From a virus: a DNA stretch of 36,721 nt. Below, one piece after another: positions 12,424-36,721 of the stretch (positions are counted from its first letter, which is position 1; every line of letters begins with the position of its first letter). The stretch covers positions 1 through 36,721 of IMG/VR virus record IMGVR_UViG_3300022689_000171; one strand, written 5' to 3'. The notes under the pieces were generated by a model that was not told the origin of the DNA, ran no database searches, and was given only the letters and a program-made list of their open reading frames with translations. The translations under genes and the position numbers were made by a program.

Positions 12424-13932
12424 ATGAACAAACCGCTAATTGATCTAACTGAAAGCAACCGCGATTACGCCGTCTTCCTTCCGAGTATCAGTGGATTTTA
12501 TGTAGGCACACTGCAACACCCAGAGACTCGCACCCCACCGGGGTTTGAGTTGGGCCTGCAAGGACTTGACTTCCTGCGCCCAGAGGGTAACTACTTTCGT
12601 TACAACTGGGGTCTTTACTCAGCTGGTCACGCTCAGCTAGACACAACAAAAGCTGACAAAGAAGAGAAGATGATCCAAGGGCGTGACCGCAAGAGTACAT
12701 TTATTCTTGGTGACAGTGGTGGCTTCCAGATCATCACCGGTGTGCTCAAAATGGACTGGAGCAAGTTCAAGACAGACGACACAGTGCGTCACAAGATTCT
12801 TGACTACCTTGAACATACCGCAGACTACAGTATGACACTCGACGTTCCAACACTTGCGGCCAGTGAGCCTTATAGCTCACGCAACGGCATCAAGAGCTTT
12901 GACCAGTGTTTGGAATACTCCAAGTTCAACAACGACTGGTTCGTCAAGAATCGCAAATATAACACCAAGCTACTAAACTCTATGCAAGGCCGCACAGTGG
13001 CAGAAGCACGTCACTGGTTTGAAGAGGTCAAGGATTATCCGTTTGAGGGCTGGGGCTTTGGTGGTTCAACCAGTAAGAACTTGGTAGTTATTCTCAAGCT
13101 GCTAATTTGGCTACGCGATGGCGGATACCTGGACGAAGGCAAGTATGACCACTTGCATTACTTGGGCGTAAGCCGCAACGAGTTTTCAGTTTACTACACC
13201 ATGATCAAGCGTATGCTGCAACAGACTGTCAACCCAAGCCTTGAAGTTACATACGACGCCGCAAGCGCATTCATCATGGCTACAAAAGGCCAGATGTATG
13301 GCGACGTGGTAGTCAACAACAAGAAGATGATTATGGGCGGTGTCCCTGTAGTAGACGACAAGCGTTTTCACGGAAGTGACTTGCCTCTAGCAGCACAGAG
13401 CCCAATCTTTGACCGTATGACGGCGGGCGATTTGTGCTATCACAATCACGGTGTGCCGGACTTGCAGGCCCTCCAAGCACGTGGCATTGATATTGACGAT
13501 GTATTCCACGATAAGGAGTTGCTCAACGACCCAGATCTTTGGGTTGAGCAGGGCAGCAAGAACAAAATTGACAAGGTTGGCAAGACCAGCTGGGACGTAA
13601 GCAGCTATCTCTACGTCATGGCCCATAACGTCTATGTCAACATCAAGACCTTACAGTTATGCAACCAGAACGTTGACCTCAGCTTGGAGGTTGCAGGAGA
13701 CTTCAACCCACGTGAGTTTACAACCGTGCAAGCGCGTAAAGGCAAATTGGAGATCAGTCCTTGGGCACCAACTGATGTATTGGTTACCACCAAGATCATC
13801 CAGGAAGTGTTCCAAACGGAAAACCCAATTGATTATATCGATTCAGTCGCAAGCTACCTGGACTCACGTTCAATCGTGAAAGGCTACCAGGACACACATG
13901 CCGTGGTAAACAACCTGTTTGACTTTAGCTAA
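12424..13932 (+). CDS. dpdA: DpdA-like tRNA-guanine/DNA-guanine transglycosylase homologue
   Basis: A 502-residue TGT-superfamily protein, larger than bacterial Tgt (about 375) and like phage DpdA enzymes, which exchange guanine in DNA for a 7-deazaguanine. The general-acid motif GDSGGFQ is at 96-102 (D97), a MTLDVPT strand holds D140, the substrate-pocket glycine stretch EGWGFGGSTS is at 208-217, HYLGVS is at 245-250, and the probable nucleophile is D278 in TYDAAS. I see no C-x-C-x2-C zinc site like that of bacterial Tgt. Neighbours supply 7-deazaguanine precursors (FolE, QueD-like, QueE) and sugar-activating genes. DNA as substrate is inferred from the family; tRNA cannot be excluded. Confidence 0.78.
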   Translation: MNKPLIDLTESNRDYAVFLPSISGFYVGTLQHPETRTPPGFELGLQGLDFLRPEGNYFRYNWGLYSAGHAQLDTTKADKEEKMIQGRDRKSTFILGDSGGFQIITGVLKMDWSKFKTDDTVRHKILDYLEHTADYSMTLDVPTLAASEPYSSRNGIKSFDQCLEYSKFNNDWFVKNRKYNTKLLNSMQGRTVAEARHWFEEVKDYPFEGWGFGGSTSKNLVVILKLLIWLRDGGYLDEGKYDHLHYLGVSRNEFSVYYTMIKRMLQQTVNPSLEVTYDAASAFIMATKGQMYGDVVVNNKKMIMGGVPVVDDKRFHGSDLPLAAQSPIFDRMTAGDLCYHNHGVPDLQALQARGIDIDDVFHDKELLNDPDLWVEQGSKNKIDKVGKTSWDVSSYLYVMAHNVYVNIKTLQLCNQNVDLSLEVAGDFNPREFTTVQARKGKLEISPWAPTDVLVTTKIIQEVFQTENPIDYIDSVASYLDSRSIVKGYQDTHAVVNNLFDFS

Positions 13933-15827: not shown

Positions 15828-17039
15828 ATGAAGAAATTATGCGAAGATGCTAATCTATCACCATATTCAAATATTTTTGATGGATTAAGTTTAATTGAGT
15901 CAGGCCAGAATCGTGGTAAAACAGATTACAAGAAATCTGCTGATCAATTAGGTATTACAGAATCTCAACTTCGTAAAGTAATTGAACGACTAAAGGGTAT
16001 GTATTCTCGCGAACCCGGTTCATCTATTACAGCAATTGAGTATGTTCAAAAGGTCAATGAATCTTCTATAGATTTTGAAGATATTGGAATTGGTCTCGGA
16101 AAATATCAAGCCGGAAGAAAAGACCACTCTAAACCATATACAATAGAAAATTTTGAATTTATTCTACAAAAAGAGAATCTTGAAGAAAGAAATACCAGAC
16201 TGGAAAATACAACCAAATACAACCAAAAAGCAGTAAACTCACCATTAGGAAAATTTTCAAGCCGAGTTGAAGCAGCTACAATTCTTGAAGTTGACCCCAA
16301 TACGATCAGCCGTTGGATTGATTCTGGTGAAGAGAAATACAAAGATTGGTATTATGAAGGCGAATACCCAGAAAAAATAGCAACTATTTTGAAAGCGAAT
16401 AATAAAAGATTCTGGGCTGGTGATAATATCAGTGAGTATTTGACAAATACTGATCAACTCATTGAAGATCTTGTTCCACGATTCGAATCAGTTCTACGAG
16501 GATTAGTGATTGATATTGATAACGATCCGAATTCTCAAGGCACGGCAAGACGTTTGGCAAAAATGTATGTTCAAGAAATCATGAGCGGCCGGTATGATGA
16601 AGGGCCTCATCCAACAGCGTTTCCGAACGAAGGCGATAATGCTTACACCGGCATGTTAGTTGTTCGCAGCGAGCTTAAAAGTATATGCTCTCACCATCAT
16701 CAGCCTGTTACTGGTGTTGCCTATATAGGTGTCATCCCCAATGGCAAAGTGATTGGACTGAGTAAATATACACGTATAGCACAGTGGTGTGCGAGGCGCG
16801 GGACGCTACAGGAAGAACTAGCAAACGACATCGCACGTGAGATTGGTCAAGCAACCAATGCCAAAGACTTGGGTGTATATATTCAAGCACAACATGGATG
16901 CTGTGAAAATCGTGGCATTATGGCGCATTCGAGCCTCACACAAACCACTGTGTTACTCGGTCGTTTCAACGAAGATCACGGGACCAAGAAAGAATTCTTT
17001 GATAACATTAAACTGCAACAAGATTTCTTGCCAAGGTAA
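15828..17039 (+). CDS. folE: GTP cyclohydrolase I (FolE) with N-terminal homing-endonuclease-like extension
   Basis: A 403-residue product, twice the FolE length. Residues about 200-403 are GTP cyclohydrolase I, which turns GTP into dihydroneopterin triphosphate, first step to 7-deazaguanines. Zinc ligands are C287 and H290 (in ICSHHHQPVTG) and C358 (AQHGCCENRG), with GKVIGLSKYTRI at 306-317. Residues 1-190 look foreign and the DNA there is visibly more AT-rich: a helix-turn-helix (33-56), a GRKDHSKPYTIENFEF segment (97-112) with ILQKENLEERN like homing endonucleases, and a NUMOD1-like helix-turn-helix (SPLGKFSSRVEAATILEVD, 138-156). The frame is unbroken. No ATG opens the FolE part; TTG 16440 is the only plausible internal start. 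Confidence 0.85.
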   Translation: MKKLCEDANLSPYSNIFDGLSLIESGQNRGKTDYKKSADQLGITESQLRKVIERLKGMYSREPGSSITAIEYVQKVNESSIDFEDIGIGLGKYQAGRKDHSKPYTIENFEFILQKENLEERNTRLENTTKYNQKAVNSPLGKFSSRVEAATILEVDPNTISRWIDSGEEKYKDWYYEGEYPEKIATILKANNKRFWAGDNISEYLTNTDQLIEDLVPRFESVLRGLVIDIDNDPNSQGTARRLAKMYVQEIMSGRYDEGPHPTAFPNEGDNAYTGMLVVRSELKSICSHHHQPVTGVAYIGVIPNGKVIGLSKYTRIAQWCARRGTLQEELANDIAREIGQATNAKDLGVYIQAQHGCCENRGIMAHSSLTQTTVLLGRFNEDHGTKKEFFDNIKLQQDFLPR

Positions 17040-18399: not shown

Positions 18400-18684
18400 A
18401 TGACTGATAATGAAATTTTTAAAGGTACCTTCTGGCGTGACCAAAAACATAACGATACCATATATATCACATTAGAAAGCCAGGACTTGATAGCAGAAAA
18501 TAATATCGATTATGATGGAATATGCGGAGCGATAAATCGTTGGTTTGTCGATAAGCTCGGATTTAAATACGAAGATTTAATCATTTCTGATGATACAAAT
18601 AACCATTCGCTAAGATTAGTTGCAAAAGTTCGGTTTATCAATGAGGGCTATGTCATAGCCAAATTACAAGGAATTTTACATTAA
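18400..18684 (+). CDS. Small protein of unknown function
   Basis: A 94-residue product with alternating strands and helices (FKGTFWRDQKHNDTIYITLE at the front; LRLVAKVRFINEGYVIAKLQ at the end). No ribosome site is visible before ATG 18400, so the start is uncertain. It overlaps the queE start by one base. No family recognised. Confidence 0.5.
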   Translation: MTDNEIFKGTFWRDQKHNDTIYITLESQDLIAENNIDYDGICGAINRWFVDKLGFKYEDLIISDDTNNHSLRLVAKVRFINEGYVIAKLQGILH

Positions 18685-19592
18685 TGGTTAAAGAAATCCG
18701 TTATACAGAGTTTTTTTACTCGCTCCAAGGCGAGGGGCGTTTTGTTGGCGTCCCTAGTCTTTTCTTTCGTACATTCGGATGCAACTTTCGGTGTAAAAAG
18801 TTTGGCCTGCCGCGTGACATGGAAGTAGGCCGTTACAATCCAGAGGTAGAGGCACTGATCAAAGCCAGAGTACATGAAACTGCAGAACGCTTTGAAGATC
18901 TGCCATTGGTGCACACCGGTTGTGACACATACGCCAGCATCTATCCAGAGTTCAAGCATTTCAATGCCACAACACCCATTGACAAGTTGCCGGCACTTTT
19001 CCAGAGCAAGATTCCTAACCAGTGTTGGACACAGCCCAATGGACAAGACATTCACCTGATTTTTACCGGGGGCGAACCGTTGCTAGCCTGGCAAGAATTG
19101 TATCCAGACTTGCTGGAACAACCAGGCATGCAAGATCTCAAGAACATCACGTTTGAAACCAATACCACACAGATGCTAAAACCAGGACTAGACGAGTACC
19201 TTGGATGGGCGGCTGCTACACGAGGATTACACGCCACATTTTCCTGCTCGCCCAAACTGAGTGTGAGTGGCGAAGAATGGAGCCGTGCTATCAACCCGGA
19301 TGTATTGCTGAACTACGAAGACGCTATTCGTTGCAACGATGGAGAACTCAGCGGCAGCATCTATTTGAAGTTTGTGGTTGCCACTCGTCAAGACGTTGAA
19401 GAAGTGCAGCAGGCAGTGAGTGAATTCCGAGCCGGCGGCGTGCACTGCCCGGTCTACTTGATGCCAATGGGCGGCCGTAGCGAAGAGTATCAGCTCAGTG
19501 TTCAAGATGTCGCCAACCTAGCCATGGAGCAAGGATGGCGCTTTACACCAAGACTTCATATCGATCTCTTCGGAAACGCATGGGGAACATAA
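18684..19592 (+). CDS. queE: QueE-like 7-carboxy-7-deazaguanine synthase, atypical cluster loop
   Basis: A 302-residue radical-SAM enzyme. The opening EFFYSLQGEGRFVGVPSLFF is diagnostic of QueE, which contracts 6-carboxytetrahydropterin to 7-carboxy-7-deazaguanine, using SAM and a 4Fe-4S cluster. FTGGEPLL (about 127-134) is the SAM-binding GGEP motif. The cluster loop is odd: C33 and C37 (FGCNFRCKKFG) lack the third Cys, Phe standing in its place. A GCDTYA comes only at residues 79-84 after an insertion, giving C-x3-C-x42-C. The ATG overlaps the previous stop by one base. SAM could come from the MetK encoded 300 bases downstream. Confidence 0.85.
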   Translation: MVKEIRYTEFFYSLQGEGRFVGVPSLFFRTFGCNFRCKKFGLPRDMEVGRYNPEVEALIKARVHETAERFEDLPLVHTGCDTYASIYPEFKHFNATTPIDKLPALFQSKIPNQCWTQPNGQDIHLIFTGGEPLLAWQELYPDLLEQPGMQDLKNITFETNTTQMLKPGLDEYLGWAAATRGLHATFSCSPKLSVSGEEWSRAINPDVLLNYEDAIRCNDGELSGSIYLKFVVATRQDVEEVQQAVSEFRAGGVHCPVYLMPMGGRSEEYQLSVQDVANLAMEQGWRFTPRLHIDLFGNAWGT

Positions 19593-19747: not shown

Positions 19748-19910
19748 ACTGGGCGGCAATCCATTGCCGCATGATGCACAGGAGAAGCTAGGCGAATTCA
19801 TTGACTGGCTTGAAGTGCATTATAAAATTGACCAAGGATCCACTGCTCTTTATTGGGATATGTCATACTACTTGGCATCTAGGATCCATACTAAGGAAGA
19901 AAATGTCTAG
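19731..19910 (+). CDS. Small protein of unknown function
   Basis: A 59-residue product from ATG 19731 (an in-frame ATG at 19704 is possible but would overlap more of the upstream gene). Helical, with KLGEFIDWLEVHYKIDQ in the middle. It overlaps metK by 8 bases and its end supplies the AAGGA ribosome site of metK. No family recognised. Confidence 0.5.
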   Translation: MKEKNELGGNPLPHDAQEKLGEFIDWLEVHYKIDQGSTALYWDMSYYLASRIHTKEENV

Positions 19911-20997
19911 AACATATCAATTTACATCAGAGAGTGTAAGCCGTGGCCACCCAGATAAAGTCGCTGATCAGATCAGCGATGCAATACTTGACCGAGCCTT
20001 GGAAAAAGGTGACGAAACAACCCGCGTCGCAGTCGAAACACTTGTTACGACAAATATGGTCACAGTCGCTGGGGAAGTCAAAAACTTCAATCTTACCGAG
20101 CAAGAAGTCGAAGACCTGGTGCGCGAAACCGTCAAGAATGTCGGATATGCTGATGGTTCCGGTTTCGACTGGGATGCACTCAGGATATACAATGAACTAC
20201 ATGCACAGTCAGGGGACATCGCGCTGGGCACGGATGATTTCGGTGCAGGTGACCAAGGAATCATGTTTGGTTACGCAAGCAACGAAACAGCTGACTTTCT
20301 CCCCATGCCTATCAGCCTTGCACACGGCCTCCTACAAAAGCTTGATGGACTACGTCAGGACGGATACGAATTTCTACTTCCAGATTCAAAAAGCCAGATC
20401 ACAGTCGAGTATGAAGGGGATACTCCCTGTAGGGTCGCATCTATCGTATGCAGCCACCAGCACACATCAGGTTTCGTGCACTCAACCCGCCAAGCAATCC
20501 GGGGAGCAGCAAAGGAAGTTATGGGTGACTTAATTGACAGGGATACTATATGGCACCTCAACCCAACCGGCAACTTTGTAATCGGCGGGCCGGATGGCGA
20601 CGCTGGAGTGACTGGGCGAAAAATCATTGTCGACACATACGGCGGGTGGGCGCCACACGGCGGGGGCGCGTTCTCGGGAAAAGACCCAACAAAGGTTGAC
20701 CGCAGTGCAGCATATGTAGCACGTTGGCTTGCCAAGAACGTCGTCGCTGACGAAATGGCAGATTGGTGCCAGATCCAACTGTCTTACGCCATTGGCGTAA
20801 AGGAACCGATAAGTATCTACGTAGACAGCAACGGACACAATCGCAGTATCGAAAAGTTTATAAGAGATAATATTGATCTCTCGCCGAAAGGTATTATTGA
20901 TCGTTTTGATCTGTTCAACTTCACTGAATACAGTGAGAATTGTGTCTACGGTCATTTTGGCAATAAAGACGTTCCTTGGGAGAATATTGGCTGGTAA
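19903..20997 (+). CDS. metK: S-adenosylmethionine synthetase
   Basis: A 364-residue MetK that makes SAM from methionine and ATP. ATG 19903 has AAGGA 6 bases upstream; the open frame before it is incidental. Motifs: GHPDKVADQISDAILD (about 13-28, with the catalytic His and metal Asp), GAGDQGIMFGYA (about 114-125), the glycine loop HGGGAFSGKDPTKVDRSAAY (about 253-272). The usual SEGHPDK reads SRGHPDK here, an Arg for Glu next to the active His. The C-terminus stops right after PWENIGW, about 15-20 residues shorter than in bacteria. Phage metK genes are uncommon. Here SAM demand could come from QueE and the two radical-SAM proteins at the right end. Confidence 0.93.
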   Translation: MSRTYQFTSESVSRGHPDKVADQISDAILDRALEKGDETTRVAVETLVTTNMVTVAGEVKNFNLTEQEVEDLVRETVKNVGYADGSGFDWDALRIYNELHAQSGDIALGTDDFGAGDQGIMFGYASNETADFLPMPISLAHGLLQKLDGLRQDGYEFLLPDSKSQITVEYEGDTPCRVASIVCSHQHTSGFVHSTRQAIRGAAKEVMGDLIDRDTIWHLNPTGNFVIGGPDGDAGVTGRKIIVDTYGGWAPHGGGAFSGKDPTKVDRSAAYVARWLAKNVVADEMADWCQIQLSYAIGVKEPISIYVDSNGHNRSIEKFIRDNIDLSPKGIIDRFDLFNFTEYSENCVYGHFGNKDVPWENIGW

Positions 20998-21787: not shown

Positions 21788-22759
21788 ATGAAAGCATTAA
21801 CTACCTTTGCGGCAGCATTGGCTCTTGCCGCAGCGCCAGCATTTGCACGTGATAACGTTCAAATATCTGGTTCATCAACAGTTTTACCTTATGCCAGCAT
21901 TGTGGCAGAAGCATTTGGAGCAAATACAGATTTCCCTACACCAGTAGTAGAAGGCGGAGGCAGCTCAGCTGGCCTCAAGCGTTTCTGTGAAGGTGTTGGG
22001 ATCAACACAATTGATATCGCTAATGCAAGCCGCGCAATCCGCGATAACGAAATCACAGCATGTGCAGAGAACGGTGTAACTGATATCGTCGAAGTGCGCA
22101 TCGGTTATGACGGTATTGTGTTTGCTACAGAGGCAGACACATTTGACTTTGAACTAACGCAAAAAGACGTCTATCTCGCGCTGGTCAACGGTTCAACTGC
22201 AACCACATGGAAAGATGTCAATCCAGCGTTTCCTGAACAAGAAATCTTGGTGTTTGTGCCTGGAACAAAGCACGGAACACGTGAAGTGTTTGAAGAAAAG
22301 GTCATGCTTGTTGGTTGTGAAATGGTTCACGGCGCGCCCGCGGACGATGCAGCCGAAGACGCTTGTATGGACCTGCGCACAGACGGTCGTTCGGTTGATA
22401 TCGACGGCGACTACACCGAGACACTGTCTCGTATTGACAGCAACCCAGGCAGCATGGGTGTATTTGGTCTTAGCTTCTACGAAAATAATACTGACAAGCT
22501 TCAGGTTGCTACCATGGCAGGCATTACTCCTAGCCAAGACACGATCGCCACTGGCGAGTATCCTGTTAGTCGCCCACTTTTCTTCTACATCAAGGCAGCA
22601 CATGTTGGCGTGATCCCAGGACTAAAAGAGTATGCTGAATTCTTTGTCAGCGATCCAGTCGCAGGGGCGGGCGGGCCGCTCAGTAATTACGGCCTAACAC
22701 CTGACCCAGCACTTGCTGAAACACAGGAACGAGTTCGTAACTTGGAAACAATGCAATAA
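21788..22759 (+). CDS. pstS: Periplasmic phosphate-binding protein PstS
   Basis: A 323-residue high-affinity phosphate-binding protein. A Sec signal peptide (MKALTTFAAALALAAAPAFA, cut expected after residue 20) is followed by the PstS motifs VQISGSSTVLPYAS (about 24-37), VEGGGSSAGLKRFCEG (about 54-69) and SNPGSMGVFGLSFYEN. The mature protein keeps several cysteines, typical of periplasmic forms. It is a host-derived metabolic gene that marine phages carry to sustain phosphate uptake for DNA synthesis; it would work with the host PstCAB transporter. The leader has the alanine-rich proteobacterial style. A strong terminator ends the gene. Confidence 0.93.
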   Translation: MKALTTFAAALALAAAPAFARDNVQISGSSTVLPYASIVAEAFGANTDFPTPVVEGGGSSAGLKRFCEGVGINTIDIANASRAIRDNEITACAENGVTDIVEVRIGYDGIVFATEADTFDFELTQKDVYLALVNGSTATTWKDVNPAFPEQEILVFVPGTKHGTREVFEEKVMLVGCEMVHGAPADDAAEDACMDLRTDGRSVDIDGDYTETLSRIDSNPGSMGVFGLSFYENNTDKLQVATMAGITPSQDTIATGEYPVSRPLFFYIKAAHVGVIPGLKEYAEFFVSDPVAGAGGPLSNYGLTPDPALAETQERVRNLETMQ

Positions 22760-32439: not shown

Positions 32440-33308
32440 AACAATATCACGACCAACTACAACAGATTTTAGACCAAGGAGAGGTCCGCACAGACAGAAC
32501 AGGCGTAGGCACAAAAAGTGTTTTTGGGATGCAGGCTCGCTATGATCTCCGACAGGGATTTCCAGCTGTTACTACCAAGAAGCTCGCTTGGCGTTCAGTC
32601 GTCAGCGAGCTTCTTTGGTTCTTGGAAGGCAGCACTGATGAGCGTCGTCTAGCTGAAATACACCACGGCACCCGCGATCCCGAGAGGACAACTATCTGGA
32701 CTGCCAATGCGCTGACACAAGCTGTCGCGCTCGATTACAAGGTTGAAGACGATCACAGACAGATGGGCCCAATCTACGGCAAACAATGGCGTGACTGGGG
32801 ATGTGATGTGTGGCGGGCTGGGGAGCATACTGACCAGATCCATAGCCTCGTCAAACAGCTTCGCCATGATCCAATGAGCCGACGCCATATCCTAAATGCA
32901 TGGAATGTTGGCGATGTACCTGACATGGCGCTGCCGCCCTGCCACGTTATGTGCCAGTTCTATGTTAGCAATCGTAACGAACTCAGCTGTCAGCTTTATC
33001 AGCGAAGTGCAGACATGTTCCTAGGCGTTCCGTTTAATATTGCCAGTTATAGTCTGCTCACACACATGATGGCGCAAATGACTGGCCTCAAAGTGGGTGA
33101 GTTTATACACACTATAGGTGATGCTCACATTTACCTTAATCACATTGACCAAGTCAAAGAGCAACTTGCACGACACGAACGTGCATTGCCTGAATTGGTT
33201 ATGCCCGATTTCGAAACACTTGACGAACTACTAAGTAAAACTGTGGACGAATTCAAGCTAGTAGGCTATGATCCACACCCAACAATTCGTGCGGAGATGG
33301 CAATATGA
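32436..33308 (+). CDS. td: Thymidylate synthase
   Basis: A 290-residue ThyA-type enzyme converting dUMP to dTMP with methylene-tetrahydrofolate. Motifs: RTDRTGVGT (18-26), GPIYGKQWRDW (111-121), the catalytic LPPCH with C169, YQRSADMFLGVPFNIASY (188-205). N201 in PFNIASY is the residue that selects dUMP; a dCMP-hydroxymethylase would have Asp there, so this phage is not using it to make hydroxymethylcytosine. ATGA overlaps on both sides couple it to its neighbours. Confidence 0.94.
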   Translation: MKQYHDQLQQILDQGEVRTDRTGVGTKSVFGMQARYDLRQGFPAVTTKKLAWRSVVSELLWFLEGSTDERRLAEIHHGTRDPERTTIWTANALTQAVALDYKVEDDHRQMGPIYGKQWRDWGCDVWRAGEHTDQIHSLVKQLRHDPMSRRHILNAWNVGDVPDMALPPCHVMCQFYVSNRNELSCQLYQRSADMFLGVPFNIASYSLLTHMMAQMTGLKVGEFIHTIGDAHIYLNHIDQVKEQLARHERALPELVMPDFETLDELLSKTVDEFKLVGYDPHPTIRAEMAI

Positions 33309-33649
33309 AAAACTTGATTGTGGCGCTAATACTATTTGCTACATCAGCGGCGGCGCAAGAAATACCACCCGGTCTTGAAACTCATTATCTATGCAATGCG
33401 CTCATTGAGTATGGATATCAAATGTCAAACGCAGAAAAATTTTCTTGCTCACAGAACTACGTGTGGCTTAAAGCAAGCTTTATGACAGTTGAGGCCGAGG
33501 AGTGGGGCAACACTGACACTGAGGGTCGAGCAGAGATAATGCTTCAAGCTTACCGAGACTTCAAATCTTGGGAAGAAGAGAACTTTGAATTGGTCGAAAG
33601 CCTACGCATTGCGCAGAGCGAAATAGCAAGAACCATAGTTGGACAGTAA
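33305..33649 (+). CDS. Small secreted/periplasmic protein
   Basis: A 114-residue product with a clear signal peptide (MKNLIVALILFATSAAAQ, cut after Ala17) and a mature part with two Cys near 30 and 48 (possible disulfide) and a long acidic helix. No family recognised. It might act in the host periplasm during late infection. Its ATG overlaps the thymidylate synthase stop by 4 bases. Confidence 0.65.
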   Translation: MKNLIVALILFATSAAAQEIPPGLETHYLCNALIEYGYQMSNAEKFSCSQNYVWLKASFMTVEAEEWGNTDTEGRAEIMLQAYRDFKSWEEENFELVESLRIAQSEIARTIVGQ

Positions 33650-33680: not shown

Positions 33681-34403
33681 TTAACCAAAAGCATAACGAT
33701 AATGGACCCGATTAATAGTCGGGTCCGTTTCATCTCTGCGATGAAGGACTTTAAGATTATTCATGAGGATTAAGTCGCCAGGCGTCCACTCGTGTTTGTA
33801 TACATATTCTTTACGCAAACATTCCTTTTCAAGACGCGGTTCTAGTTCTGTTATCGTATATGCTGGGCTATAGAAAAAATATTGATCGCCATCATTTTGT
33901 ACAAGAGAGTGCATTGCCTTCTTAACCATCATGAACGCCCGCTTCTTCTTTTGATCAGTAAATTCATACGGATGCTCAGCATGTTCAAAATATTTTGCGG
34001 CCTTATTTAAACAGTTTTGCTTAGCAGCATCTTCTTTAAGTTCTTCTGAGCTATTTGCATAAGCTGCAACCATATCAAGGAAATATGTTGGACTAGATCC
34101 TGTTGGCGCTGACTCACAATACAAGCCAACATATGGATAGACAACTGGCTCATATCCACCATCATGATGCCAAAGCATGTCCGGATGTGATGAGAAAATT
34201 TCTCCCAATTCATTTGGTCTGTTGGCAATTAATGCTTCAGTCAGTCCACGGGGATCTTGATCAACAAGATCCCCGAAATGTTTAACAGTGGCACGATCAG
34301 AATTTTCAATCACTAACACGCCAATGCGCTTGTTACGAAATTCAGTGATAAGTTCTTTTGTCACATCGGTAGCATCGATTCTTTTAACGAACGTGTATGT
34401 CAT
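33681..34403 (-). CDS. Fe(II)/2-oxoglutarate dioxygenase, TauD/TfdA-like
   Basis: A 240-residue non-haem iron dioxygenase. The metal triad reads H79-x-D81 (in WHHDGG) and distal H221 (KVLHRRDE), with R236 (VHYRYAF) in place to bind 2-oxoglutarate. N215-N216 before the distal His and the length fit the TauD/gamma-butyrobetaine hydroxylase group. It would hydroxylate or oxidatively cleave a small molecule or a modified residue. It is the last gene of the - strand operon, starting 4 bases inside the previous gene, so it probably acts on the product of the radical-SAM and transferase genes upstream. Confidence 0.82.
   Translation of the reverse strand: MTYTFVKRIDATDVTKELITEFRNKRIGVLVIENSDRATVKHFGDLVDQDPRGLTEALIANRPNELGEIFSSHPDMLWHHDGGYEPVVYPYVGLYCESAPTGSSPTYFLDMVAAYANSSEELKEDAAKQNCLNKAAKYFEHAEHPYEFTDQKKKRAFMMVKKAMHSLVQNDGDQYFFYSPAYTITELEPRLEKECLRKEYVYKHEWTPGDLILMNNLKVLHRRDETDPTINRVHYRYAFG
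33703..33725 (+). other. 8-base GC-rich hairpin at the convergent gene junction
   Basis: GGACCCGA and TCGGGTCC, 7 bases apart, lie within the last codons of the - strand dioxygenase gene. Read on the + strand it ends in GTTTC and could slow transcription leaving 33305-33649; no other terminator is seen in the 31-base gap between the convergent genes. Confidence 0.35.
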
Positions 34404-34948
34404 ACTTTAGCCCTCGTAAGTGTGTTGTTGCCTGACCAGATTACTCTCTGCTGGCAATCAACAGGTCCATTGCATAGCTGATATAGATTGTCATCTCCTT
34501 GCCAATCGTCACCAAGAAGAAGTAGTAAACTATCCATCACAGTGGCAGCACGGGCTCTGCTAATGAATACGTCATTGAAGCCTAACTCGCTTGCTGCTTG
34601 GACTTGTTGATGAATCATCTCAATTGTCGACAATCTTATACCATTTTTGATATCTTCTATCCATTTTGGACGTAACCCTTTACCAGTGCCTTGTGATGAA
34701 TAGTATCTCGACAGTAACCTAACCATCCCATTATAAAAATGCCGTTGCTGTAGTATGCTCATTGTGGCCGGCGTTCCATTTGCGTCAATGGCAACACTGT
34801 AAGCTAAGATTTCATTCTCTGGTGGCCACCATATGGCGTGATCATCCAGTTTGCGAACGGTTATTGCATCATTATGTAGATGCTCGAAAGCCTCTTTAAT
34901 TTCAGGTGTTAGTATAAAATCAGTTTTGACTGTTAGCAAGCTTTTCAT
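34400..34948 (-). CDS. Possible GNAT-type acyltransferase
   Basis: A 182-residue product from ATG 34948 with GAGAGAG upstream, overlapping the end of the radical-SAM gene by 29 bases. The strand-helix order EILAYSVAIDANGTPATMSIL, then MVRLLSRYYSSQGTGKGLRP, then a late FNDVFISR resembles GNAT-fold acyltransferases, with the RxxGxG-like loop in the G-T-G-K-G-L-R stretch. The resemblance is modest. If correct, it would acylate an amine made in the same operon. Confidence 0.4.
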   Translation of the reverse strand: MKSLLTVKTDFILTPEIKEAFEHLHNDAITVRKLDDHAIWWPPENEILAYSVAIDANGTPATMSILQQRHFYNGMVRLLSRYYSSQGTGKGLRPKWIEDIKNGIRLSTIEMIHQQVQAASELGFNDVFISRARAATVMDSLLLLLGDDWQGDDNLYQLCNGPVDCQQRVIWSGNNTLTRAKV

Positions 34949-35849
34949 GTTCTCTCTCATAATATTCAAAGAATGGCGCTACCTTGTAATTCTCCGTTAA
35001 AATTCCACGTCGTTGACTGCCTGGGTCGGGTATTTTTTCGTTATTCTCGACGGACCAATCTGTTAGCTTAACATACAATGTGCCACTTCGAACCTCTAAA
35101 GGATAAACGCAGGTATTGCGCTCAATAAATCCATCAATCTTATATGAAACGGTTGGTTTTACATCGTATCCATGAATATTTGACATCAAATCAATCATTT
35201 CATCTAGCGAATATGTGTAGGTGTCACGGAATGTGCCTAGCTTTCCAATCGACTTGAAACGTATTGCCACTGGGAATCTGGCACCAAAACGCCTGTTGTA
35301 AATTTGACCAAGGTCATCGATGTATTGAATCAAATCTGGGATTACATGTATATTGGTAGGATCGATAATAATATTTACGTGGGGGATTAAGCCAACATTC
35401 ATACAGTTATCTAGTGCTATGGTTTTTTGTCTAGCATACTGACCATTATCAAATTCAAGGTATGCTGCATCATCAAGACCTCCGTTCATACTGAGCCCAA
35501 GACTATGCAGTCCTGACTCCTTCAATTGCTTGACGTAAGGAAGCCGTCTCAATTTGAGACCGTTAGTAAGCATATCAGGACGATGGCCAGCCTGGCGAAC
35601 AACGCCGATAAGATCAGGCAATGATTCATTCATTGTAGGCTCAGCACCAATAAATCTCAAATTGACTCTAAACGGAAGACGAGACATAAAATCTTTAAGG
35701 CGGCCTTCGTCAACATCTGGATAGTTTTCATTATTGAGAATATCACCCAAATAGCAATTTGCACAGGTCATTTGGCAACGATATGTTGTTTGAACTGAAA
35801 TAATTTTGAATGTATTCTGCTCTGGCTCAAGTTCGTAATACGTCATCAA
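34920..35849 (-). CDS. Radical-SAM protein
   Basis: A 309-residue radical-SAM enzyme. The cluster motif C25-x3-C29-x2-C32 (TYRCQMTCANCYLGD) and a GAEPT at about 67-71 (the GGEP SAM site, with Ala for the second Gly) are present, followed by the usual alternating strands and helices (MLTNGLKLRR, LGLSMNGG, HVNIIIDP). No auxiliary-cluster Cys set is obvious; one Cys lies near 250 (NTCVYPLEV). The substrate is not readable. Its ATG overlaps the sulfotransferase-like gene by 4 bases. Confidence 0.83.
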   Translation of the reverse strand: MMTYYELEPEQNTFKIISVQTTYRCQMTCANCYLGDILNNENYPDVDEGRLKDFMSRLPFRVNLRFIGAEPTMNESLPDLIGVVRQAGHRPDMLTNGLKLRRLPYVKQLKESGLHSLGLSMNGGLDDAAYLEFDNGQYARQKTIALDNCMNVGLIPHVNIIIDPTNIHVIPDLIQYIDDLGQIYNRRFGARFPVAIRFKSIGKLGTFRDTYTYSLDEMIDLMSNIHGYDVKPTVSYKIDGFIERNTCVYPLEVRSGTLYVKLTDWSVENNEKIPDPGSQRRGILTENYKVAPFFEYYEREHEKLANSQN

Positions 35850-36385
35850 ACTGACCTTAAATATCTTTCTATTAATTGTTTGCTATTTACAATTTGTTTT
35901 GTGCGCAAATTGAAATGTTTTTCTGATTCACCAGCACCGAAAATATCATCGAACTCAAGCGTAATATCAGTGTGAATCAATTTTTTATTCTGATTCACAT
36001 GTTTCATTGTATCTATATAATCATCTACCAAATTTTCAGAGATCTCAATCTCGTCATAATTCGGATCTAGCATTCCGGTTTGCATGACAAGCAACGCACT
36101 TACTAACCGATGTAACCCTGGTCTCTCTATAGTTATCACGTGATAATGTTCATCGATAAAAGACACAATACGTGGATCAATTTGATGCAATGAATACCAA
36201 TGCCCGCAGACTATAAAATCTCCCGATTTGACTTCCGACAATTCAGCACATGTAGATGGTGCGTATGTTGAATTATTAATTCCTATCGTTTGTTTACCAT
36301 ATCTTTCAGCATATATATCAGCTGCGCTGCGGGTTCCAGACCTAGGATTGGTAATGATTGCTATATAATTTAAATTGTTTTCCAT
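35846..36385 (-). CDS. Sulfotransferase-like P-loop protein
   Basis: A 179-residue product from ATG 36385; the longer reading from 36433 would overlap the upstream gene more and has no ribosome site. IAIITNPRSGTRSA (8-21) matches the PAPS 5'-phosphosulfate loop of sulfotransferases, and RPGLHRLVSALL (about 82-93) the R-x7-S 3'-phosphate site. It is shorter than ordinary sulfotransferases (250-300). It would sulfate a hydroxyl or amine using PAPS, if the C-terminal half still supports catalysis. Confidence 0.65.
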   Translation of the reverse strand: MENNLNYIAIITNPRSGTRSAADIYAERYGKQTIGINNSTYAPSTCAELSEVKSGDFIVCGHWYSLHQIDPRIVSFIDEHYHVITIERPGLHRLVSALLVMQTGMLDPNYDEIEISENLVDDYIDTMKHVNQNKKLIHTDITLEFDDIFGAGESEKHFNLRTKQIVNSKQLIERYLRSV

Positions 36386-36721
36386 TTTGGTATCTTGCTG
36401 TCTGCGCTGCTGACACACGCCTCTGTAATACAAGGGCGCGGCCCGTCAAAAAGCTTAAAGCCCGTCTCTATGTTGCCGAGCGGGACGTCGTGGCAGCTAT
36501 AGCTACGTTTGATAGATCCATCTGGCTCACGAATAATTATCCCTTGATATCCACTGTTGCACATCCATCCTTTGAACTTGTTGAAGTTGAAGGCATTGAA
36601 CCGTTCAGCTTGATCCATATACCAACGCTTACCAGTGCTGTCACGAAACTCAACTTGCATGTGCCAGGGCACACTCTTGTCGTTTTGCCCCTCGGCATGT
36701 TGTGGAATCTGAAATTCTGGT
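36370..36721 (-). CDS. C-terminus of a radical-SAM protein (partial, runs off the window)
   Basis: The - strand frame is open to the window edge, so only the last 116 or so residues are seen. They look like the C-terminal SPASM-type region of a radical-SAM enzyme: WMCNSGYQGIIIREPDGSI, then SYSCHDVPLGNIE, then PRPCITEACVSSAD, four or more Cys in the order and spacing used to bind an auxiliary iron-sulfur cluster. A GTG at 36672 in this frame is internal, not a start. It overlaps the sulfotransferase-like gene by 16 bases and would be the first seen gene of the operon. Confidence 0.7.
   Translation of the reverse strand, partial: PEFQIPQHAEGQNDKSVPWHMQVEFRDSTGKRWYMDQAERFNAFNFNKFKGWMCNSGYQGIIIREPDGSIKRSYSCHDVPLGNIETGFKLFDGPRPCITEACVSSADSKIPKWKTI

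Follow-up and report, generated by a model that had tools for sequence, protein, structure and literature searches.

What does a run of overlapping enzyme genes at the edge of a phage contig act upon? The question is raised by IMG/VR virus record IMGVR_UViG_3300022689_000171, a fragment of 36,721 bp that was analysed over its whole length and is called the window here. At its right end (33681-36721, minus strand) lie five genes, A to E, each overlapping its neighbour, and a reading-frame check agreed with the frames, opposite strand and overlaps as first described from the DNA (the original prediction). Three of them, C, D and E, are the core of a conserved module, read here as a tailoring one, in which a radical S-adenosylmethionine (SAM) enzyme is accompanied by an acyltransferase-like protein and a 2-oxoglutarate oxygenase. 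Gene calls are mechanical open reading frames, and the loci are metagenomic. The five genes are:

36370-36720, minus strand: A, the final 116 aa of a radical-SAM protein whose C-terminus is rich in Cys (SPASM/twitch-like); the 5' part lies beyond the contig end
35846-36385, minus strand: B, sulfotransferase-like (a weak call), 179 aa, with a PRSGT loop and recurrent homologs
34920-35846, minus strand: C, complete radical-SAM enzyme, 308 aa, core of the module (PF04055, CX3CX2C)
34400-34948, minus strand: D, GNAT-fold acyltransferase-like, 182 aa (AlphaFold model and Foldseek; QGTGKG motif)
33681-34403, minus strand: E, TauD/TfdA-type Fe(II)/2-oxoglutarate dioxygenase, 240 aa (PF02668, HxD...H)

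A and B overlap by 16 nt, B and C by 1 nt (TGATG), C and D by 29 nt, and D and E by 4 nt (ATGA). The stop codon of E is 31 nt from a plus-strand gene at 33305-33649, and the left end of the operon is convergent with the thymidylate synthase (TS) operon, as originally described. By eye, this small convergent gene has an apparent signal peptide; it has no confident family. At the other end A is cut by the contig end, and sequence is visible only 3' of that point.

A conserved radical-SAM, oxygenase and GNAT module

Searches of IMG/VR returned 206 contigs with relatives of C and 220 with relatives of A, of which 80 each were fetched for analysis. Collapsing C at 90% identity gave 46 distinct viral sequences, 39 of them evaluable; near-identical contigs were collapsed by C identity only. 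Neighbouring families were found with iterative hidden Markov models (HMMs), and a partner was counted when it lay within four same-strand genes of C. A 2-oxoglutarate oxygenase was near C in 34 of the 39 loci, a D-family gene in 29, and both in 27. The HMM seeds came from the same loci and may inflate these counts slightly; the control, in which these HMMs and this criterion were applied to other genes in the loci, gave 11 of 590 positions (1.9%). Because both partners are present at 27 of 39 loci against 1.9% of control positions, the grouping of C, D and E is not due to chance. Co-occurrence in relatives had been set beforehand as the test that could refute the original prediction, and the families were found together far above the control. 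When desaturases were counted and two viral contigs derived from metagenome-assembled genomes (MAGs) were added, an oxygenase was present in 37/41 loci and both partners in 28/41.

With R for the C family, T for TauD, H for an Asp/Asn-hydroxylase-like protein, G for the D family and S for B homologs, most viral loci read R>T>G, R>H>G or R>G>T>T>S on one strand, and the window shows the last group in permuted order, S>R>G>T. The B homologs come after R>G>T>T at L027, L030, L102, L103, L106-L108 and L119, and D belongs to the same family as c3/c9. Membrane fatty-acid-desaturase-like genes are a third oxygenase type beside C, which they adjoin in L035, L036, L040, L097, L104, L114 and L116-L118. 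They occur directly beside C in both phages and Bdellovibrionota (for example L036:1457-2236, L117:10895-11707 and L104:3124-3888). We found no published description of such a module or of the radical-SAM arrays described below; radical-SAM cassettes receive passing mention in the sections of PMC7029224 that concern them.

Family assignments of the five proteins

C matches Radical_SAM (PF04055; 35.1 bits against a cut-off of 29.5, 2e-8) and carries the cluster motif CX3CX2C as CQMTCANC, with C24, C28 and C31 invariant. The viral alignment of the family keeps this motif together with GAEPT, TNGL, SMNG and a C-terminal DW...RG...FF signature. No conserved set of C-terminal auxiliary-cluster cysteines was present in the family alignments, the three cluster cysteines being the only invariant ones; C thus has no SPASM auxiliary cluster. 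The AlphaFold model of C (pLDDT 90) gave 7tol as its best Foldseek match (3e-13), and the nearest structures are Tes, MoaA and BlsE. These enzymes, its best HMM and fold matches, share the radical-SAM core with C but differ from it in several respects: C is 15-19% identical to Tes/GDGT-MAS, MoaA and BlsE, the Tes sequence match spans the core only, the auxiliary-cluster cysteines are absent, and C falls far below every NCBIfam equivalog cut-off (TrsS, NirJ2, Tes, MoaA, BlsE and PqqE; best 58 bits against 490). In the 14 genomes searched with a profile of the C family, members scored at least 279 bits and mostly above 390, and the next sequences at most 142.

E is a TauD protein (PF02668; 72.3 bits against a cut-off of 27, 8e-20) with the iron triad in place, HHD (HxD) at 79-81 and the distal His at about 221 in VLHRR; its PDB matches are ScoE (2e-7, the best) and TfdA-like proteins (3e-7). 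D has no sequence-family match. Its AlphaFold model (pLDDT 78, pTM 0.78) is matched best by GNAT acetyltransferases (3efa, 4.1e-6), and the putative acyl-CoA pyrophosphate loop (Q/RxxGxG/A) reads QGTGKG in the window and RQDGLG in L003 and is degenerate in other family members.

A five-way alignment places A as the last third of a radical-SAM protein of ~370 aa. Truncated A itself has no Pfam match, SPASM included, and reaches 46.9 bits with N_Twi_rSAM (cut-off 170); the radical-SAM core is seen in its homologs, since the full-length genes in L044 and L109, to which A is 79-81% identical, match Pfam Radical_SAM at 1e-15. Four C-terminal cysteines (54, 76, 97 and 102) are invariant in the five-way alignment. 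The earlier family calls for A, C, D and E are thereby backed by Pfam (C, E), full-length homologs (A) and predicted fold (D). B had been described as a PAPS-loop protein, which is still a weak call. A PR loop is conserved (PRSGT in B, motif PR[ST]xx), but B has no Pfam or PDB match and the best homolog matches Sulfotransfer_3 weakly (E=0.046), so that B may at most be called a putative sulfotransferase.

Distribution in phages and bacteria

In 50,697 cultured-phage records searched by tblastn, there was no relative of C, E, full-length A or the TauD protein of a related phage locus (L002), and a bacterial C query found two matches only, both weak and partial. A plasmid search returned only distant radical-SAM proteins (~25% identity). 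The operon had been called rare in T4-like phages; this is true of isolates but not of uncultivated marine phages, given the hundreds of IMG/VR contigs above. Bacterial C is rare and patchy, present in 2/385 Alphaproteobacteria and 3/192 Bdellovibrionota genomes, and in 2/87 and 1/248 genomes of the relevant family and order samples. Two ostensibly bacterial MAG contigs, L037 and L044, hold the same phage genes as the viral loci and are therefore probably viral. Since viral and bacterial groups are interleaved in a tree of 60 C sequences, repeated transfer of the gene between phages and bacteria is probable.

Some bacterial copies of C lie beside genes for secreted proteins

In Labrenzia alba (L042) the gene order is GNAT, Asp/Asn-hydroxylase-like, C, an Imm11 immunity protein and an RTX protein of 2,620 aa with an AHH nuclease domain (Pfam). 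Roseibium and Rhodospirillales loci resemble this arrangement, and the enzyme genes overlap by 4 nt in the Labrenzia alba and Roseibium operons, GNAT>H>R>(immunity gene)>RTX. A nonribosomal peptide synthetase was considered for the giant neighbour and rejected, as Pfam shows RTX repeats and the AHH nuclease domain. One domain of ~165 aa with a DxDxDG motif is common to all these bacterial neighbours, including a shorter, secreted-looking protein in L046 that lacks RTX repeats. A search with this domain found 15 places in six alphaproteobacterial genomes, and each of the eight copies of C that these genomes contain has a gene for it within 3 kb on the same strand, usually with a GNAT gene; two further RTX copies with no C in view still have the GNAT.

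This linkage to secreted proteins is the strongest evidence for a protein substrate, although for phages it is indirect. It suggests that the module chemically decorates a protein, and the bacterial loci favour a large protein over a short precursor.

RTX toxin operons carry an activating acyltransferase of the HlyC type. The bacterial loci are alike in placing a GNAT-fold gene beside a gene for a giant secreted RTX protein; they differ in adding radical-SAM and Asp/Asn-hydroxylase-like genes, and the phage copies have no RTX gene nearby.

Enzyme islands in related phages

The operon had been read as a small pathway; in its relatives the module does not stand alone but lies inside a large hypervariable enzyme island. 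Relatives of A end long islands in which tandem radical-SAM/SPASM-like genes are followed by A and then by H, other 2-oxoglutarate oxygenase, desaturase-like and GNAT genes, often with a fibre gene on the opposite strand. A fibre gene lies within 10 genes of C in 13/41 loci. An island beside tail fibres in a T4-like genome is thus true of the relatives; the window ends before any fibre gene. Up to 19 Radical_SAM matches were found in a record, namely in a 198-kb contig (G916) of a T4-like phage with portal, head protease, SbcC/D-like and baseplate genes, where all lie within 105.8-149.0 kb. Further rich contigs hold 17, 16, 16 and 14 matches in 275, 212, 323 and 382 kb. Two radical-SAM arrays with many tailoring-type enzymes, in T4-like or large phages, are:

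G916:C1:105811-149018 (L201-L203), 19 per contig
G919:C1:241626-271200 (L205, L206), 14 per contig

Recurrent island genes include nitroreductase-like, PP-loop ATPase-like, AMP-ligase, P450, aminotransferase and nucleosidase genes. Cytochrome P450 occurs at five loci, one of them in the phage island L152:8347-9594 (PF00067, 6e-15). At L206:13517-19227, ornithine/arginine-decarboxylase-type, saccharopine-dehydrogenase-type and AMP-ligase genes adjoin a fibre gene and form a possible polyamine-type pathway.

The sections of PMC7029224 on the host-recognition cluster of pelagimyophages and cyanomyophages describe radical-SAM cassettes in it. That cluster is alike in that it is hypervariable, belongs to T4-like marine phages and carries tail fibres and lipopolysaccharide (LPS) genes; there the cassettes are named in passing as a difference between two genomes, and the module, the 19-gene arrays and the bacterial RTX link do not figure in those sections. 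The islands also resemble clusters for ribosomally synthesized and post-translationally modified peptides (SPASM maturases with tailoring enzymes) in their tandem radical-SAM/SPASM-like genes with oxygenases and nitroreductase-like genes, but differ in that no precursor peptide was found here and C has no SPASM domain. A search for a precursor demonstrated none: there is no room for one inside or 3' of the operon, and the contig ends 5' of A. A family of ~95-110-aa proteins recurs beside the module, at L002:9436-9726 and at 36 further loci, and in 19 cases it is convergent and at position +3. We do not call it a precursor or substrate, because in most loci it is convergent rather than co-transcribed.

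A possible pathway and its substrate

As a best explanation, tentative as a whole, we propose that a T4-like marine myophage has a hypervariable host-recognition/biosynthetic island that ends in this operon, and that the module there tailors a polypeptide exposed outside the cell. That the genes form some biosynthetic or peptide/protein-modifying pathway had been put forward at the outset, and this general idea is supported. Co-conservation of the enzymes suggests a single shared substrate, the bacterial linkage suggests that it is a polypeptide, and the island's position suggests a role in adsorption or surface change. In the simplest pathway, whose order we infer, SAM would be supplied, C would carry out a radical C-H activation, E would oxidize and D would acylate. 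SAM may come from the window's own synthetase, which lies outside the operon:

19861-20997, plus strand: MetK, S-adenosylmethionine synthetase (PDB SAM synthases, 5e-109; PF02773, 3e-60)

With SAM and a 4Fe-4S cluster, C would activate a C-H bond by way of a 5'-deoxyadenosyl radical. The same substrate would be hydroxylated or oxidized by E with O2 and 2-oxoglutarate, and an amine would be acylated by D. If truly a sulfotransferase, B would add sulfate, and A would bring about another radical-driven change. Other phages have Asp/Asn-hydroxylase-like or membrane desaturase-like oxygenases in place of E or alongside it. In G916 and G926 a nucleosidase gene is found a short way upstream of A, and its product could remove 5'-deoxyadenosine. 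The substrate would be a large secreted, often RTX-type, protein in bacteria, and in the phage perhaps a tail fibre or host-surface protein. MetK was rejected as a general companion of the module, being found in 2 of 13 records (the window and, among 12 related contigs, G916 with its 19 radical-SAM genes).

Several points weigh against a displayed polypeptide. For phages it rests on analogy with bacteria, and the phage loci tested had neither RTX repeats nor the DxDxDG motif; among the bacteria, L041 (genome G006) combines R with TauD but lacks a DxDxDG protein. Nearness to a fibre gene may be true of any gene in a hypervariable island. TauD enzymes and the closest radical-SAM structures act mostly on small molecules or lipids, and the islands hold UDP-sugar (UDP-glucose) dehydrogenase, carbamoyltransferase, AMP-ligase, decarboxylase and DegT aminotransferase genes, typical of small molecules and glycans. 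These genes, with the ornithine-decarboxylase- and saccharopine-dehydrogenase-type ones, would fit a possible though rather unlikely alternative in which the module makes a modified amino acid or sugar, as a small molecule or a building block for glycans, that is put on host surface polysaccharide or the virion and alters receptors or blocks superinfection. BlsE and MoaA, relatives of C, act on small molecules, and such islands are tied to LPS change in the cited sections of PMC7029224. However, the module itself has no glycosyl or nucleotidyl transferase, and the bacterial copies lie in operons of secreted proteins, not among polysaccharide genes.

Modification of a lipid or fatty-acyl chain (hydroxylation, desaturation or C-C coupling), in which the GNAT would serve as N-acyltransferase in the manner of ornithine-lipid or RTX-toxin acylation, seems quite unlikely to us. 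In structure C is matched best by the tetraether-lipid synthase Tes, the best PDB match of E is ScoE, desaturase-like genes adjoin C at several loci, and H belongs to the family of the lipid hydroxylases LpxO/OlsC. Yet the sequence likeness to Tes is confined to the core, most loci have no desaturase beside C, and no recurring acyl-carrier or lipid-synthesis genes were seen. It is improbable that unrelated auxiliary genes piled up independently with no common pathway, mosaic and enzyme-rich as the islands are, for the reading frames overlap and R, an oxygenase and a GNAT are adjacent on one strand, in several orders, in most of the 46 viral sequences and some bacteria. Least probable, and by our estimate very much so, is a DNA or nucleotide hypermodification pathway: TS, GTP cyclohydrolase and QueE-like genes share the window, but the operon is convergent with the TS operon rather than part of it, TS keeps by eye the FNIASY motif of a normal dTMP synthase, and the bacterial context, with its secreted proteins, does not fit.

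Other genes of the window

The DNA polymerase of the window belongs to phrog_262, and a PstS-like phosphate-binding protein is encoded at 21788-22759 (phrog_5385, 8.5e-7). GTP cyclohydrolase and QueE-like genes and, by eye, a tRNA-guanine-transglycosylase/DpdA-like gene lie at 12424-13932, 15828-17039 and 18684-19592; this set is probably for 7-deazaguanine DNA modification.

Significance

The islands are an unexplored store of radical-SAM enzymes that have no relative in the cultured-phage collection searched. The link to RTX-type secreted proteins leads to a cultured organism, Labrenzia alba, that allows a direct search for the substrate. Should a fibre or surface protein be what the module modifies, phages would gain a chemical route to altered adsorption or host surface beyond sequence variation. 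A broader proposal, which we consider unlikely as it stands, is that a displayed protein, for instance the tail fibre, is chemically diversified by the large islands of uncultivated marine myophages, which carry up to 19 radical-SAM genes as well as 2-oxoglutarate oxygenases, desaturase-like proteins, P450s and GNATs, and that these islands might be a phage-encoded protein-maturation system that widens host recognition and is shared with bacterial RTX-type secreted proteins.

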